Below are positions 1-41,200 of a stretch of DNA of 64,000 nucleotides, one piece after another. The translations under genes were made by a program, and so were the position numbers. Under the pieces are notes generated by a model. The model did not search any database, was not told the DNA's origin, and saw only the letters and a list, made by a program, of their open reading frames with translations. Origin of the DNA: an uncultured Chlorobiaceae bacterium (GTDB lineage: Bacteria; Bacteroidota; Chlorobiia; Chlorobiales; Chlorobiaceae); NCBI GenBank assembly GCA_903895195.1, contig CAITSZ010000032.1:1-64000 (forward strand). The letters run 5' to 3'. Within the stretch, counting starts at the first letter, position 1, and every line of letters starts with the position of its first letter.

Positions 1-46
1 CCTGCTTGGCCAGATCCATTCCAACAATATCGGTAAAGGCTATCAT
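1..46 (-). CDS. bchD: magnesium chelatase subunit D, 5' tip only (partial)
   Basis: Reading leftwards from an ATG at 46..44, the first 15 codons give MIAFTDIVGMDLAKQ, which resembles the start of the AAA+ domain of magnesium chelatase subunits I and D. The gene runs off the left edge. Its ATG shares one base with the bchI TAA stop (TAATG), so the two are translationally coupled. BchI, BchD and BchH together insert Mg2+ into protoporphyrin IX at the head of (bacterio)chlorophyll synthesis. With so few residues the BchD call leans on gene order. Confidence 0.7.
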   Translation of the reverse strand, partial: MIAFTDIVGMDLAKQ

Positions 47-1224
47 TATACTGCTTCTGCTTCTCCGAGGACTTTAGCGAGTTCACGATCAATTTTCTCC
101 CCCGCATCGAGTGTTTCAAGGGGATCCTTGCGCAGACGGTGGCGAAGACAGAGACCTGCAATCTCTTTGACGTGCTTCATGGTGACAACCGTCTCCCCGC
201 GGAAAGCGGCATGTGCATAAGCGGTACGGGTTATGGTGAGTTCACCACGGTGACCGTCAATGCCCAGATTCATGCAGAGCCTTGCTATATCGGTGAGAAC
301 AGCATCGGTCATGGTAACTTCAGGAAGCAGATCTTTTGCCTGCTGGATCTTTTTCTGAAGCTTGACCTGTTCGCGGTTATACTTTTTCATAAAGGCATCA
401 GGATCTTCGTCAAACTCACGGCGGCGTTTGACGATGTCCACTCTCTTGCCAATATCGAGAATAGTGATAATGCGCGCATGAAGACCGAAACGGTCAAGAA
501 GCTGGGGGCGGAGCTCTCCTTCCTCGGGGTTGCCGGAACCGACAAGAACGAAACGGGCAGGGTGGCGAATACTGATACCTTCGCGTTCAACAACGTTTTT
601 ACCGCTTGCGGCAACGTCGAGCAGAACGTCGACAAGATGGTCATCAAGGAGGTTAACCTCGTCAATATAGAGGAAGCCGCGGTTTGCCTGGGCAAGAAGG
701 CCGGGTTCAAATGCTTTTACACCGCTGGTAAGCGCCTGTTCGATATCGATAGTTCCGCAAACACGGTCTTCGGTAGCGCCAAGAGGAAGGTCAACAACCG
801 GAACAGGAATCTGTTCAGTCCGGATTGAAGCCGGGTCAATAGCCTGGGCTCCTTTTTTGCCTTCTTCATTTTCGAGATATTGCTCAGGAGTACGGTTATA
901 GGTATCGCCCTCTACCCTTTCGATCAGAGGAAGCACTTCGGCGAGCGCCCGGACAGTTGTGCTTTTTCCGGTACCCCTGTGGCCCATGACAAGCACCCCG
1001 CCAATTCTCGGATCAATGATATTGAGGATCAGACTGAGCTTCATTTCCTCCTGACCGACAATAGCTGTAAACGGGAAAGCAAGACCTGATGACTTCTTTT
1101 TGGCAGCAGGTTTTGCAGCTTTCTTTGGTGCCGGAGCTGTTGTAACCTTTGCATCCACCTTGACCTTTACCGCACTTGTTTTCTTTGCAGCAGTTTTTTT
1201 TGCAGCTGTTTCAGTCTGAGTCAT
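46..1224 (-). CDS. bchI: magnesium chelatase ATPase subunit I
   Basis: AAA+ ATPase subunit that powers Mg2+ insertion into protoporphyrin IX for bacteriochlorophyll synthesis, working in the cytoplasm with BchD and BchH. Visible: Walker A GHRGTGKST (about residues 81-89 from the chosen start), Walker B FLYIDEVN (about 184-191), and the RPQLLDRFGLHARI sensor region typical of BchI. The first 45 residues are a Lys/Ala-rich tail before the conserved FPFTAIVGQE start of the AAA+ core. I chose the ATG at 1224 (392 aa); an in-frame ATG at 1263 would add 13 residues, and neither has a clear Shine-Dalgarno. Directly coupled to bchD by a one-base overlap. Confidence 0.93.
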   Translation of the reverse strand: MTQTETAAKKTAAKKTSAVKVKVDAKVTTAPAPKKAAKPAAKKKSSGLAFPFTAIVGQEEMKLSLILNIIDPRIGGVLVMGHRGTGKSTTVRALAEVLPLIERVEGDTYNRTPEQYLENEEGKKGAQAIDPASIRTEQIPVPVVDLPLGATEDRVCGTIDIEQALTSGVKAFEPGLLAQANRGFLYIDEVNLLDDHLVDVLLDVAASGKNVVEREGISIRHPARFVLVGSGNPEEGELRPQLLDRFGLHARIITILDIGKRVDIVKRRREFDEDPDAFMKKYNREQVKLQKKIQQAKDLLPEVTMTDAVLTDIARLCMNLGIDGHRGELTITRTAYAHAAFRGETVVTMKHVKEIAGLCLRHRLRKDPLETLDAGEKIDRELAKVLGEAEAV

Positions 1225-1430
1225 AATTGATCGTTTAGTTGATACCTTCACCCCGTGAACCATGGAAAATCATTCACCGAAAAAGGCTTACTGTTTTAAA
1301 GATTTTCAATAATAGACATTGAATTTATGCTTTTAGAAAGACAATAGAAAATGCTTTTCCAAAACTTGGCAAGAGTATGAGACGTTTTTTTTGCCACGAC
1401 AATAAGCCATTTCCTCAACCGGCTGGTACT

Positions 1431-3095
1431 TTACTCCTGCAGAGCATTTTCCGCCGCCTCTTTTATGGTTTCAGAAAGGGTCGGATGGGCGTGTATGGTA
1501 TCGGCAAGGATTTCGGCGGTAACTGAAAGCCGTCTCGCCAGCGTTAGCTCCCCGATCAACTCAACCGCTCCGTGTCCTACAACATGGGCGCCCAGCAATC
1601 GACCATCAGCAGCGCTGAACACAAGTTTTACCAGCCCCTCAAGATTTCCAAAAGCATTTGCCTTGCCTGAAGCTGCAAACATTGAGCGACCAACCTTAAC
1701 CTTGTAACCGCGCTCTTCTGCCTCCTTTTCGCTGAGACCGATACTTGCAACTGAAGGTTCGGCATAGACACAGCGGGGTATCATGGAGTCATCAAGAGGA
1801 TGGGTGTGAGCGCCCGATATGGCTTTAACGGCTATTGCCGCTTCGGCAGAAGCCTTGTGGGCAAGAAGCATTCCTCCCCGGACATCACCGATCGCAAAAA
1901 TATGAGGGACAGAGGTTCTGCACTGACTGTCGGTCACAATAAATCCGCGCGCGCTTTCTACTCCGGCTTGTTCGAGACCAAGACCGCTGGTGTTGGCGGT
2001 TACGCCGATTGCGACGAGGAGGTAGTCGGCAGTCAGCAGTTGGCAGTCGGCAGGGGGAGGGAGTGCTGAGGGCTGAGGGGGAATTGGGCAGTTGGCAGTT
2101 GGCAGTGGGCAGTTGGCAGTTGGCAGTGGGCAGTTGGCAAGGGGGAGGGAAAGTGCTGAGTGCTGAGTGCTGGGTGCCGAGGGAAAACAGTTGGCAGTGG
2201 GCAGTGGGCAGTTGGCAGTGGGCAGTGGGCAGTTGGCAGTGGGCAGTGGGCAGTTGGCAGTGGGCAGTGGGCAGTTGGCAGTTGACAGTTGGGAGTCGTT
2301 TGGGTTGAGAATAAGATGGGCGGTCACTTTGTCGCTTTGTACGGTGACATTTTCGAGTTTTGCGTTTGTTGCTACTGTTATGCCTGCTTTCTGGAGTGAG
2401 CGTTTCAGGGCTTCGGCAATCTCTTCATCTTCGAGCGGAAGGAGCCTGGGCTGCAACTCCACCAGAGTCACGGTACTGCCGGCCATTGCGTAGAACCATG
2501 CCATTTCGACACCGATAGCTCCCCCGCCAACGACAATCATCGAGGCCGGAACTGACTTCATGGAAAGCGCTTCCCTGCTGGTGATAATGCAGTTTCCGTC
2601 GGGTTCAAGGCCTGGCAGGGTTCTGGGATTCGCTCCGGATGCAATAATAATATGACGGGCAGTTACACCGTCAACCTTAACACCGTCGCGAATAATATCA
2701 AGATCGCAGGGCGTGCGGAAGAGTGCCTCTCCCTGCCTGACGTCAACCCCCGCACGACGAAGCATGAAGGCGACTCCTTTGGACATTTTGAGTGCCACAT
2801 TACGACTGCGTTTAACGGCTTCAGCAAGATCGACAGTTCCGGGCTGCAGTTTGAGACCGAAGGTGGCTGCTTTATTAGATAGATCGAATACCTCCGCACT
2901 TCTCAAGAGGGCTTTGGTAGGAATACAGCCCCAGTTTATGCATACACCGCCCAGTGCAGCTTTTTCAATTATGCAGACCTTCATTCCTGCTTTGGCGGCC
3001 CGAAGTGCAGCTTCATAACCTCCGGGACCTGAACCGATAACGGCCAGGTCGAAGGTAAGACCCGGCTCTTCAGACGACTGTTGCATGGAATGCAT
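1431..3095 (-). CDS. lpdA: dihydrolipoamide dehydrogenase with in-frame repeat insertion
   Basis: FAD/NAD+ disulfide oxidoreductase, the E3 component of 2-oxoacid dehydrogenase or glycine cleavage complexes. Visible: FAD-binding GSGPGG near the N-terminus, redox pair [16 protein letters not shown]-binding [15 protein letters not shown]-binding AIGDVRGG, and the C-terminal dimerisation His in HAHPTLSE. It is 554 aa against the usual 465-475. The excess is about 90 residues (about 267-356; DNA 2025..2300) of STANCPLP-type peptide encoded by a heptanucleotide array. The array sits between VTAHLIL and LLVAIGV in the NAD-binding domain and keeps the frame. Removing it restores normal length. Divergent from the RluD-type gene. 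Confidence 0.9.
2025..2300. repeat. heptanucleotide array inside lpdA
   Basis: On the plus strand this is a mosaic of (GGCAGTT/G)n blocks, a purine-rich spacer (gggggagggaaa), and a short (GTGCTGA)n block. The order is roughly A - spacer - B - spacer - A - spacer - B - A, where A is GGCAGTN and B is GTGCTGA. The right part is a near-perfect 21-bp period, equal to three heptamers. The whole block is read without a stop by lpdA on the minus strand. Confidence 0.9.
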
Positions 3096-3170: not shown

Positions 3171-4220
3171 ATGCAAAATCAGACAATCAAAAACGAATCA
3201 GAGCGAGAGATCGAAGAGGCTCTTGAACCGAAAAAAATCACCCTGCAGGTAAGCAAGATGCAGACCTCGATGCGTATTGACCAGTATCTGACGCAGCAGG
3301 TGGAAAATGCCACGCGCAACAAGGTTCAGGAGGCTATTGAGGATGGGCGTGTGCTTGTGAATGAAAAAGCGGTTAAATCAAATTACCGCATCAAATCGTG
3401 CGATCTGATAGAGTATACCATGCTGCGTCCGCCTGCCCCTGAACTTGCAGCGGAAGATATTCCGATTGCTATTATTTATGAGGATGAGGACATGATGGTG
3501 ATCAACAAGAAGCCCGGCATGGTGGTGCACCCTGCATTCGGTAACTGGACAGGCACTCTTGCTAACGCCATTCTTCACCATATCGGCAAAGAGGGAGATG
3601 AACTTGACAAATCAGAACTCCGTCCGGGCATTGTACACCGGCTCGACAAGAACACTTCGGGACTGATCATTGTTGCAAAAAATCCTGTTGCACTGCACCG
3701 CCTTGCACGCCAGTTCGCCGATCGCAAAGTGGTAAAAATATACAAGGCCATTGTGTGGGGGGTTCCCGCAATTGCGGCTGGCACCATTACAACCAATATC
3801 GGGCGATCAAGAAGAGACCGGAAGGTGATGGCGAACTTCCCTTATGAAGGAAAGGATGGCAAAACTGCGATTACGGACTATAGGGTGAGTGAAGATCTGC
3901 ACTGGTTTTCGGTACTGTCATTGACGCTGCACACGGGCCGTACCCATCAGATAAGGGCTCACATGCAGCACCTTGGTCACCAGATTCTTGGTGACGAAAC
4001 CTATGGTGGCGCAAGCATTCGCAATCTCCCGTTCAGCAAGAGCGAGGGTTTTGTCCTAAACTTACTCAAGCTGCTGCCGCGTCAGGCTCTGCATGCGGAG
4101 ATGCTTTCGTTTCATCAGCCGATGACCCATGAGCCACTGACATTCACTGCCCCGCTGCCGGAGGATATGCTCGGTGCTCTGGGGAAAATCCGCGCTGCTG
4201 TCGCTCAAGCTTCTCTCTGA
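3171..4220 (+). CDS. rluD: RluA/RluD-family rRNA pseudouridine synthase
   Basis: Converts uridines to pseudouridine in 23S rRNA (RluD-like) or a related RNA. Domains: a charged N-terminal tail of about 25 residues, an S4 RNA-binding domain (about 28-95, with MRIDQYL), then the catalytic domain with MVVNKKPGMVVHP-like motif I and the catalytic Asp in RPGIVHRLDKNTSGL. The conserved HTGRTHQIRAHM follows. 349 aa is normal for the family. The exact RNA target cannot be told from sequence alone. Transcribed away from lpdA, with about 75 bases between. Confidence 0.88.
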   Translation: MQNQTIKNESEREIEEALEPKKITLQVSKMQTSMRIDQYLTQQVENATRNKVQEAIEDGRVLVNEKAVKSNYRIKSCDLIEYTMLRPPAPELAAEDIPIAIIYEDEDMMVINKKPGMVVHPAFGNWTGTLANAILHHIGKEGDELDKSELRPGIVHRLDKNTSGLIIVAKNPVALHRLARQFADRKVVKIYKAIVWGVPAIAAGTITTNIGRSRRDRKVMANFPYEGKDGKTAITDYRVSEDLHWFSVLSLTLHTGRTHQIRAHMQHLGHQILGDETYGGASIRNLPFSKSEGFVLNLLKLLPRQALHAEMLSFHQPMTHEPLTFTAPLPEDMLGALGKIRAAVAQASL

Positions 4221-9351: not shown

Positions 9352-9408
9352 CGGTGCAATATACTACTCCACAGGGTAAGAGTGAAACTTTATCCAATAG
9401 GAAAGATA

Positions 9409-9480
9409 GTGCTGAGTGCTGAGTTCTGAGTGCTGAGTGCTGAGTGCTGAGCGAGGATGAAGAAGTTGGCAGTTGGCAGG
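9409..9480. repeat. heptamer array, GTGCTGA block then GGCAGTT block
   Basis: Plus strand: about six GTGCTGA units, one with a gttctga variant, then a purine-rich spacer (cgaggatgaagaa) and two GGCAGTT units. Same modular build and same relative polarity as most other arrays in the window. Confidence 0.85.
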
Positions 9481-9537
9481 GAAATCAACTCTTTTGGCTC
9501 AATAAAAGTTGGTAATTTGCTGTGAATTACACATTTG

Positions 9538-9627
<90 letters not shown>

Positions 9628-14871: not shown

Positions 14872-14979
14872 TTGCCAACTGCCCACTGCATACTGATTTC
14901 ACTTCTTCACTCAGCACTCAGCACTCAGCACTCGTCCCTCAGCACTGTTTTCTCCTGCCCACTGCCAACTGCCTACTGA
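14872..14979. repeat. heptamer array, minus orientation
   Basis: Reads on the minus strand as GGCAGTN units, a gaaaaca-type spacer, GTGCTGA units, a second spacer and further GGCAGTN units. It ends 3 bases from the stop codon of the hydrogenase protease gene. Confidence 0.88.
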
Positions 14980-19111: not shown

Positions 19112-19504
19112 TTTACCTCCGTTTTATAAAAATCAGATTATCAGAAAGCAAATTGTACTAATATTGTTAGGAATGTAATGGAATATACCGAAAAGGTTAG
19201 CGGCTATTGACAGAAAAGCAATTACTTACGAAAATAACAATTGTTCATTACAATACCATGAGAAATCAGTTGGCGGGTTTCGAAGTGCTGAGGGACGAGG
19301 GACGAGGGACGAGTGCTGAGTGCTGAGTTCTGAGGGACGAGTGCTGAGTGCTGAGTGCTGAGTGCTGAGTGCTGGGTGTTGAGGGCTGAGTGCTGAGATT
19401 GAGGAGAGTGGGCAAGTGAAAGCAAGACAGTTGGCAGTTGGCAGTGGGCAGTGGGCAGTTGGCAAGGGGGGATTGAATGCGGTTGGCATTGGGATTAGTT
19501 TATT
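19112..19504. other. hupS upstream region plus heptamer array
   Basis: The first 130 or so bases should hold the hup promoter (AT-rich, no element I would commit to). A long heptamer array follows, and then the 3' end of the methyltransferase-like gene. No gene seen. Confidence 0.7.
19284..19466. repeat. heptamer array at left edge of accessory block
   Basis: Plus strand: (GTGCTGA)n with gggacga variants (about 18 units), a purine-rich spacer (gaggagagtgggcaagtgaaagcaagaca), then (GGCAGTT/G)n. The right end of the accessory block carries the same modules at 35535..35636. Confidence 0.9.
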
Positions 19505-38896: not shown

Positions 38897-41200
38897 TTAA
38901 TAGATCAGTCGTGTAAAATAAAAGACAAAATAACCGAAGACAACAGCAAGCAGCATGACAACATAGGTCTGAACCTTGCCTGTCTGAAGTTTTCGTAAAA
39001 CCGCACCTGTGGTGTTTACAGAGAATGCTGTAAAGTTCACCAGACCATCAACGACATATTTGTCGAAGCTGTTGTTTGCGAATGCAAGATTCTTGACAAT
39101 GAGAGCAACACCGTTGACAAATCCGTCTATAATATTGGTATCAAACCATGCGAGCATTTTCGAAAGGAGCATAGAGCCCTTTATAAACGTTGCATCGTAG
39201 ATTTCGTCCCAGTACCACTTGTTTAGCGAAAAGAGGTAGAGTGGACGAATCGCTTCAGCTGTTTTGTCGGGGTCAATGATTTTAAAGACAAATACTACAC
39301 CGGCCAAACTGATTCCAAGGATCACCATGATGCTTGAAATATATATTGCAGGGAAATGGGCTGCGTGCGATCCATGAGCGAGTTCAGCCTGACGCTCGTT
39401 TGTAAGTGCTGAGTGCTGAGTGTTGAGTGCTGAGTGTTGGCCTTCGGTTGCCGACTGCTGACTGCTTACTGCCGACTTTTGGGGTTCAAGTGCTGAGTGC
39501 TGAGTGCTGAGTGCTGAGTGTTGGCCTTCGGTTGCCGACTGCTGACTGCCTACTGCTGACTTTTGGGGTTCGGTTGCTGTCTGGTAACTGCCTACTACTG
39601 TTGCGGGGGTTTGGATCATTTTCATGAACCAGCCTTGGGCTCCGTCTAAGGGGTTCGGGGAGTAGACGAAGAATACTGATAGGGCTGCCAGAATTACGAG
39701 TGGGGCTCTCATGTTCCAGGAGACTTCGTGAACTTCATGAGCGGAGTGATGAAGGTCGTTGTGCGCGTCGTGTGCAGCATGAGCATGATGTGCGCCATGA
39801 AGATCATCGGCGGGCTTGAGGTGTGTGCGGCTTTCACCGAAGAATACAAGCCAGATCTGGCGACCCATATAGAAGGCCGTGAGCATGGCGGAAAAGAATC
39901 CGAGAACAGGAATAAGATAGTATACACCACCGCCTTCTACTTTGGCAAAGCCGATCGCTCCGGCAAGAATGGCATCTTTACTCATAAAGCCGCTGGTTAG
40001 AGGCAGACCGGCAAGAGCAAGCGTGGCGAGCGTGAAGGTTGCAAAGGTCCATGGCATGTGTTTGCGGAGACCGCCCATCCAGCGCATGTCCTGCTCGTGA
40101 TGCATGGCATGGATGATAGCGCCTGAACCAAGGAAAAGACAGGCTTTGAAAAATGCGTGTGTAACAAGGTGGAAGAGGGCTGCTGAGTATGCTCCTACAC
40201 CAAGACCGAGCACCATGTAGCCGAGCTGGGAAACGGTAGAGTACGCCAGAACCCTTTTGATATCGTTCTGGGTAATGGCTATTGTCGCTGCCATAAAGGC
40301 GGTGAATGCACCGATAAAGGCTATTACATGGAGAGCATCGGGCGTAAGAAGTACAAAGATACGGGCAACGAAATATACTCCTGCTGCAACCATTGTCGCT
40401 GCATGGATAAGGGCTGAAACCGGGGTCGGGCCTTCCATAGCATCCGGAAGCCAGATATGCAGAGGGAACTGAGCGGATTTACCGACGCAACCCATAAAGA
40501 GAAGAAGACCGGCAGCGGTGAGCCAGGCGTTTGACATTGCAAACTTCCCTGCTGCCAGGTTCAGATAGATCTCGGTAAAGCTGAAGGTATGGAACTGGGA
40601 GTAGAGAATAAGAATGCCGAGCCACATGCCGATATCGCCTACGCGATTGGCAAGAAAGGCTTTTTTCTGAGCATCGGCGGCACTGTCTTTTTCAAAAAAG
40701 AACCCTATAAGAAGGTAAGATGAGAGACCGACAAGTTCCCAGAAGATATAGATAGAAAAGAGGTTATCGGAAAGCACAATACCGAGCATGGAGAAGGTGA
40801 AGATTCCAAGAAATGCAAAATACCTTCCGTAGTTTTTGTCACCGGCCATGTATCCGGTGGAGTAGAGATGAACGAGGAGGCTGATGAGCGTGACCATCGC
40901 CAGCATGATCGCTGTAAGGTTGTCGATCACAATGCCCATCTTGATCTGCAGCGGGCCTATGCCGGGCACTTTGCCAAGGTCAATCCAGGTAAAATCCCAT
41001 GCAACTTTGAATGCCGGATCATAAGTCTGCACAATAACGGTCCAGAAGATATAGGCCGATATCGCAAATGCTGTACCAAGTATTCCCACCCCTACAAAAT
41101 CGCCACTGCGTGGAAGCCTGCGATTAAAGAAGATAAGAATGACAAACGAGAGCAGCGGCAGCAGCAGTACGACTATTGATAACTGAATTAAACTGTGCAT
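38897..41200 (-). CDS. nuoL: complex I subunit L with in-frame repeat insertion
   Basis: 767 aa against about 610-700 expected. Core motifs: IFWELVGLSSYLLIGFFF, AQFPLHIWLPDAMEGPTPVSA and NDIKRVLAYSTVSQLGYM. After the antiporter core there is a His-rich stretch (LHGAHHAHAAHDAHNDLHH). From about residue 534 to 599 come two 28-residue tandem copies (EPQKSAVGSQQSATEGQHSA...) encoded by a heptamer-derived array. The C-terminal lateral helix and last membrane helix are intact beyond it (NKWYWDEIYDATFIKG), so the protein probably remains functional. Confidence 0.93.
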   Translation of the reverse strand: MHSLIQLSIVVLLLPLLSFVILIFFNRRLPRSGDFVGVGILGTAFAISAYIFWTVIVQTYDPAFKVAWDFTWIDLGKVPGIGPLQIKMGIVIDNLTAIMLAMVTLISLLVHLYSTGYMAGDKNYGRYFAFLGIFTFSMLGIVLSDNLFSIYIFWELVGLSSYLLIGFFFEKDSAADAQKKAFLANRVGDIGMWLGILILYSQFHTFSFTEIYLNLAAGKFAMSNAWLTAAGLLLFMGCVGKSAQFPLHIWLPDAMEGPTPVSALIHAATMVAAGVYFVARIFVLLTPDALHVIAFIGAFTAFMAATIAITQNDIKRVLAYSTVSQLGYMVLGLGVGAYSAALFHLVTHAFFKACLFLGSGAIIHAMHHEQDMRWMGGLRKHMPWTFATFTLATLALAGLPLTSGFMSKDAILAGAIGFAKVEGGGVYYLIPVLGFFSAMLTAFYMGRQIWLVFFGESRTHLKPADDLHGAHHAHAAHDAHNDLHHSAHEVHEVSWNMRAPLVILAALSVFFVYSPNPLDGAQGWFMKMIQTPATVVGSYQTATEPQKSAVGSQQSATEGQHSALSTQHSALEPQKSAVSSQQSATEGQHSALNTQHSALTNERQAELAHGSHAAHFPAIYISSIMVILGISLAGVVFVFKIIDPDKTAEAIRPLYLFSLNKWYWDEIYDATFIKGSMLLSKMLAWFDTNIIDGFVNGVALIVKNLAFANNSFDKYVVDGLVNFTAFSVNTTGAVLRKLQTGKVQTYVVMLLAVVFGYFVFYFTRLIY
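39404..39598. repeat. heptamer array inside nuoL, with 84-bp tandem duplication
   Basis: Plus strand: GTGCTGA units with gtgttga variants, then reversed A-type units (gactgctgactgcctactgc) and ttttggggttc. The composite is present twice with an 84-bp period, i.e. 28 codons. Unlike the other arrays, A and B modules lie on opposite strands here. Confidence 0.9.

Follow-up and report, generated by a model that had tools for sequence, protein, structure and literature searches.

The lpd locus and its heptanucleotide array

The window, meaning the whole stretch of 64,000 nucleotides that was analysed, comes from a draft assembly of 49 contigs, in which array lengths may be off by whole repeats. 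Near its start lies lpd, which encodes dihydrolipoyl dehydrogenase (E3). The gene sits between two conserved neighbours, both present in the window and in 10/10 related loci searched. We take these to be a bchI-type magnesium chelatase gene and an rluD-type pseudouridine synthase gene.

46..1263, minus strand: presumed bchI-type magnesium chelatase gene
1431..3095, minus strand: lpd, dihydrolipoyl dehydrogenase (E3), 554 aa, reading frame open through the array, TIGR01350
2022..2042, minus strand: CAACTGCTGACTGCCGACTAC, end of the array, equal to the loop codons of the array-free relative L040 save the last base (loop comparison)
2037..2285, minus strand: insert relative to L040, the nearest array-free relative; 249 nt, 83 codons (loop codons and DNA comparison)
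2085..2296, minus strand: heptanucleotide mosaic of CCAACTG/CCCACTG units (PLPTANC), a CACTCAG block (STQHSAL) and C/T-rich spacers (Tandem Repeats Finder, sequence)
3171..4220, plus strand: presumed rluD-type pseudouridine synthase gene

The original observation, an in-frame mosaic heptanucleotide array inside an intact lpd, was confirmed. The reading frame stayed open for all 554 aa, so the array is read without a stop, and the encoded peptide is a chain of PLPTANC-type and STQHSAL-type units, both as the preliminary description had stated. Tandem Repeats Finder placed the array at 2085–2296 (period 21, 10.4 copies, score 200) and, in a second call, at 2085–2282 (period 7, 28.1 copies). The insert boundaries (2037–2285) were set by alignment with L040, and a duplicated CCAACTG bounds the 249 nt on both sides. 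The span given earlier (2025–2300) covers this insert, but its size is 83 rather than about 90 residues. Between two conserved anchors the window has 114 codons and L040 has 31, a difference of 83. The L040 protein (L040:3001-4413) has 471 aa, equal to 554 − 83, which bears out the claim that the total minus the insert gives a normal E3 length.

The flanking E3 sequence had been described as intact, and this held. The protein scored 493.8 bits against TIGR01350, exceeding the cut-off (408.8) despite the insert. Residues 16–260 and 351–552 aligned to residues 5–247 and 254–455 of 1ebd chain A, and the alignment broke at 260|351, corresponding to 1ebd residues 247|254. The array had also been placed in the NAD-binding domain; more exactly, its loop lies beside the NAD-binding part (PF00070, residues 186–258).

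Selection and predicted fold of the E3 core

Residues C52, C57, H535, H537 and E542 were invariant in a 31-row alignment. They match the CxxxxC redox disulfide and the C-terminal His-Glu pair, which we take to be motifs of E3. The assignment to the dihydrolipoyl dehydrogenase class follows the TIGR01350 cut-off and these catalytic residues, and the activity is predicted. The dN/dS of the lpd core was 0.078–0.097 between the window and seven relatives. In the comparisons with L039 and L040, lpd (0.089 and 0.094) slightly exceeded both neighbours (rluD: 0.083 and 0.074, bchI: 0.066 and 0.062). Judged by these ratios, lpd outside the array is under purifying selection.

An AlphaFold2 model of the window lpd had a mean pLDDT of 82.6, with 362 of the 554 residues at 90 or above. 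The pLDDT fell below 50 at residues 1–8 and 267–344, the latter between strands 256–263 and 352–356. The ten best PDB matches of the model were E3 enzymes (TM-score by target 0.92–0.94). Modelling of the loop had been proposed as a check, and it gave a low-confidence loop between two strands of a confident E3 core. The core is thus predicted to fold as an E3 with a disordered insert that extends a beta-hairpin loop.

The loop in related species

The lpd half upstream of the array was searched in 61 genomes of the family and 65 of the genus. Since this query lies upstream of the array, lpd genes with out-of-frame arrays were detectable as well. A manual count gave matches above 300 bits to this lpd in 45/65 genus genomes and no such match in the other 20, nine of which are listed as at least 97% complete. 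The loop was inspected in 37 of the 45 genus orthologs. Outside this inspection lay nine loci with lpd open frames of 477–513 aa (G003, G015, G017, G033, G039, G067, G068, G084 and the second G065 copy). One set of loop rows comprised 30 loci, window included, and another had 30 loci besides the window, including three from other phyla. Array-free loops were counted over 31 rows (L068 left out), and their length was 30 or 31 codons in every row.

Loop arrays were found in four species, all in frame: the window (+83 codons), L039 (+43), L041 (+30) and L054 (+32). L039, L054 and the array-free L040 correspond to genomes G041, G055 and G037, L041 is taken as G077, and the window's own genome is G000. 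The array units differed among the four species. The four insert peptides contained no lysine or arginine, had 9, 0, 2 and 2 cysteines and shared no common length. Comparison with Chlorobiaceae E3, also proposed earlier, turned up no frameshift and no relative sharing a long insert without repeats. The same description had called E3 a core metabolic enzyme. The E3 identity stands, but the wording calls for a caveat because the genome has a second lpd paralogue and 20 genus genomes lack a match above the threshold.

The array bearers are four species of a five-species Chlorobiaceae clade; the fifth, L040, is nested among them and has no array. In a tree of bchI, rluD and the lpd core, the window, L039, L040 and L054 formed a clade (support 100/100), with L041 as its sister (99/98 on three genes, 91/92 on the flanking genes alone). 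Forcing the four array bearers together without L040 was rejected by the AU test (p = 4e-29 with three genes, 4.7e-7 with the flanking genes), so the history of the array involved at least two changes. A group of the window, L039 and L054 was not rejected (p = 0.24 and 0.31), so the array may have been gained once and lost once, or gained twice.

The loop DNA of L040 is one mismatch away from three heptamers, and that of L042, array-free and outside the clade, three mismatches. The background minimum was six mismatches in 775 windows of the same genes, and the array-free loop of the distant L136 had five. A deletion between the window's two CCAACTG copies would yield the L040 loop almost exactly. 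The L040 loop may thus be the contraction product of a lost array; alternatively, the L040 and L042 loops possibly represent a pre-existing seed of heptamers.

Arrays elsewhere in the genome and in the genus

The window's own genome had 148 matches to the first search pattern (CTGCCNN × 3) and 109 to the second (CACTCAG), with none in the reversed controls. Because of these controls, and because arrays occur in the same loop of three other species, the repeats are more than chance. Within the genus, the first pattern was found in 13/65 genomes and the second in 22/65; reversed controls over the 65 genomes gave three single matches and none, respectively. Counts (first, second pattern) were highest in G078 (384, 170), G000 and G055 (131, 111), followed by G041 (45, 64), G077 (34, 13) and G037 (23, 6). 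Lower counts were seen in G033 (16, 0), G009 (0, 16), G051 (0, 16), G054 (9, 4), G035 (9, 3) and G015 (11, 0), and most remaining genomes had no match to either pattern. G037, the species without an lpd array, carries a smaller array load than the lpd-array bearers. In the G078 assembly (80% complete) no lpd ortholog was found, and this genome is absent from the lpd tree. A distant-mode search of a plasmid collection gave no match to the lpd array.

A partial census of arrays covered 362,326 bases of own sequence, namely the window and 29 further stretches, 28 of which had been chosen for listed array matches. It yielded 55 array segments, 10 of them counted inside genes. The window contributed the following besides lpd.

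9408..9627: two heptamer arrays (9408–9451, 9538–9627), spanned by no ORF of at least 120 aa with 20 aa on both sides
14908..14946: heptamer array, likewise without such an ORF
19311..19464: heptamer arrays (19311–19397, 19428–19464), likewise without such an ORF
38900..41200, minus strand: nuoL, complex I chain 5, start codon uncertain (PF00361 281.2 bits, PF00662 68 bits)
39400..39600, minus strand: heptamer array inside the NuoL linker, the second one in frame in the window (repeat calls, relatives)

The gene-borne segments lie in lpd, nuoL, a cysteine desulfurase gene (two segments), the E2 acyltransferase gene and genes for an Eco57I-type methylase, a GDP-fucose-synthase-like epimerase, a PAS histidine kinase and a histidine kinase ATPase domain; the tenth is in a 590-residue ORF without a Pfam match. 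The label 'rare' therefore did not survive: eight recognisable genes of this genome have in-frame arrays, and relatives show the same for E2 and NuoL. As to an intergenic-type repeat, 45 of the 55 segments lay outside any recognised gene. These 45 were checked for spanning ORFs of at least 120 aa; several shorter spanning ORFs exist.

The arrays of lpd, E2 and the histidine kinase ATPase domain lie between stretches of recognised domain sequence, and that of NuoL between stretches conserved in relatives. For the desulfurase, methylase, epimerase and PAS kinase, the array precedes the first Pfam domain found, so translation of these four arrays rests on the open frame. In fatty acid hydroxylase and pyrophosphatase ORFs the array also precedes the domain, near the ORF start, and these were not counted as gene-borne.

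Some of these loci have features of their own. At L141:832-5546 (contig C5), a gene for a type 2 encapsulin shell protein that includes a cyclic-nucleotide-binding domain (PF19307 389.7 bits, PF00027 46.1 bits) adjoins the cysteine desulfurase gene and one for a hexapeptide-repeat protein. The desulfurase has a long N-terminal region with the two in-frame heptamer segments, presumably the cargo-loading part for the encapsulin. In the epimerase (L154:8932-10044, C17), the Pfam domain begins where the CACTCAG array stops; there is no methionine between the two, so the start would lie upstream and the repeats would be included. In L146:2804-3421 (C6), an in-frame heptamer segment (residues 97–110) lies inside the PF02518 ATPase domain (residues 77–199) of the histidine kinase. 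Closely spaced CACTCAG pairs on opposite strands, resembling inverted repeats with a short centre, occur at C3:3156-3370, C17:81848-82094 and C5:208773-208984.

E2 and NuoL linkers across species

The linker of E2 acyltransferases is naturally flexible and of low complexity. By eye, the linker between the lipoyl and E3-binding domains was heptamer-encoded in 5 of 30 E2 loci (window, G055, G078, G037 and G041); the other 25 had ordinary low-complexity linkers rich in Ala, Pro and Glu. For NuoL, 30 loci gave 29 rows, L183 being without a row and the L193 row breaking off in the linker; the genomes of these two loci (G053 and G079) had no match to either heptamer pattern. A heptamer-like linker was present in five of the 29 rows, namely the window, G055, G041, G037 (degenerate) and G045, the last of which falls outside the five-species clade. 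The remaining rows had other low-complexity linkers. As far as the aligned sequences go, the repeats took the place of existing linkers in NuoL and E2 and lengthened a compact loop in lpd.

Counting one genome per species, all 14 array-bearing copies had open frames (four lpd, five E2, five NuoL). Out-of-frame copies were detectable because the searches used sequence upstream of the array for lpd and NuoL and downstream of it for E2. Because of shared ancestry the 14 copies are not 14 independent events, although array lengths still differ among species.

Reading frame and turnover of the arrays

Since 7 and 3 share no factor, all three frames of a heptamer array give one and the same seven-residue repeat. 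Entry in any phase thus gives the same peptide, and only the net length remains under constraint. CCAACTG, CCCACTG and CCGACTG are free of stop codons on both strands and CCTACTG and CACTCAG on one strand only; the orientations occurring in these genes contain no stop codon.

The lpd array was matched at 88% over 159 bases by L150:3619-3774, an array without a long spanning ORF, and by other own arrays at 84–88% over 140–160 bases in the best cases. None of five longer junction strings taken from the lpd array (at least 16 bases) was found elsewhere in 362 kb of own sequence, and hence a block copy from another own locus is unsupported.

In the 492 bases flanking the lpd array, L039 and L054 diverge by 0.150; the regions to either side gave 0.037 and 0.028. 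Both states were seen in other species at 45 of the 74 differing sites near the array, and at 25/58 and 22/47 sites on the two sides. This pattern fits an exchange of the array and its flanks by recombination. The dS between these species was 0.251 for lpd, 0.092 for rluD and 0.063 for bchI, with dN/dS of 0.188, 0.150 and 0.018. The raised lpd divergence likewise fits recombination and could include some relaxation. The array was also considered as a general hotspot of recombination or mutation and rejected as such: NuoL showed no peak, and E2 one only in and next to the linker.

Gene-borne arrays possibly show slightly more 21-bp periodicity than the others. With the larger of lags 7 and 14 subtracted from lag 21, the medians were −0.05 for coding arrays (n = 16) and −0.11 for others (n = 24; one-sided p = 0.014). 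When lag 21 was instead scored as a bump relative to lags 14 and 28, the medians were 0.030 and 0.002 (p = 0.0025, or 0.025 with one value per gene). This excess is only suggestive because the bump measure was chosen post hoc and the coding arrays are not independent.

Interpretation and alternatives

We consider it probable that a repeat expansion specific to this lineage underlies the insert and that flexible protein segments tolerate it. A heptanucleotide family with CCNACTG and CACTCAG units would have multiplied in this Chlorobiaceae branch, and the lpd insert would be a piece of it, tolerated in genes where the protein is flexible. Slippage and recombination would turn the arrays over in unit type, length and presence, and selection would purge versions that break the frame. 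We infer that the protein is made with its loop and that the loop would have no function of its own.

A loop with a selected function, such as partner binding or redox chemistry via its cysteines, would be in keeping with an array in four of the five clade species and with the heptamer linker of E2, the usual partner of E3, in these species. The preliminary description had likewise called the repeat 'domesticated'. However, neither sequence, length, charge nor cysteine content is conserved, and in the own genome the E2 gene adjoins the other lpd paralogue (C5), not the array-bearing one. Since the insert varies among species and the nested L040 has none, tolerance fits better than selected function, which we regard as improbable; calling the insert 'domesticated' goes beyond these observations.

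Loss or gain of heptamers could also shift the frame and turn lpd off and on, as at contingency loci. One heptamer step does alter the frame, and even the sister species L039 and L054 have differently composed arrays, but with every array-bearing lpd, E2 and NuoL copy open, in a survey of one genome per species where out-of-frame copies would show, such a phase-variable switch is very improbable. A decaying pseudogene or an assembly artefact might be suspected in a draft assembly with collapse-prone repeats and a second lpd. Against this stand arrays in the assemblies of four species, all open, an lpd dN/dS of about 0.09 and invariant catalytic residues, which together make decay or artefact extremely improbable.

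Tolerated repeat expansion, the reading preferred here, could be taken further. A spreading heptamer might act as a general writer of flexible segments, entering in any phase and recurrently rewriting loops and linkers of E3, E2, NuoL and the encapsulin-linked desulfurase, and so supplying new, fast-evolving protein sequence. We offer this wider idea tentatively, at somewhat below an even chance. In either form, repeat DNA appears, from the genomes compared, to have been turned into protein sequence in this green sulfur bacterial branch. It gives an opportunity to test, in free-living bacteria, how repeat DNA becomes protein. Close relatives have one loop with an array, with a different array or with none, so that enzymes with and without the loop can be compared. 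Such comparisons can address whether spreading DNA repeats give rise to low-complexity segments of proteins, and whether these are put to use or just tolerated.

Comparison with known systems

In the literature on heptamer and tandem repeats in Chlorobium, Chlorobi and green sulfur bacteria, with subscription journals poorly covered, no description of these arrays was found. Heptamers in ORFs and in-frame selfish elements are already known elsewhere. Compared with ordinary E2 linkers, those of the five species are built from heptamer-array codons instead of the Ala/Pro/Glu-rich codons of the 25 other loci. Simple sequence repeats at contingency loci, for example in Haemophilus influenzae, are also tandem, lie in or near genes and change length by slippage, and they concern surface structures. 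In contrast, the 14 copies described here, from one genome per species, included no off-state, and their targets are metabolic.

In Beggiatoaceae, TAACTGA heptanucleotide repeats lie mostly between genes, with some in ORFs (PMC4679880). According to the accessible part of that paper, those in ORFs chiefly affect the ends of proteins or proteins of unassigned function, an RNA polymerase beta-prime-like protein being the one exception, and the stop-free orientation is discussed. The Chlorobiaceae arrays resemble this family as tandem 7-bp units of a bacterial genome, some of them inside ORFs. They differ in their units (CCNACTG and CACTCAG) and, as far as the accessible account of TAACTGA extends, in that several metabolic enzymes have them in loops or linkers and that they are seen again in related species. 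Rickettsia palindromic elements, of about 150 bp, occur in frame in non-structured segments of unrelated metabolic genes, as the accessible parts of two papers describe (PMC10969869, PMC2996958). They share with the present arrays the presence of in-frame repeat DNA inside protein-coding genes. Measured against those partial descriptions, the Chlorobiaceae repeats differ in being head-to-tail arrays with periods of 7 and 21, in having units that are not self-complementary and in changing length and unit type between species.
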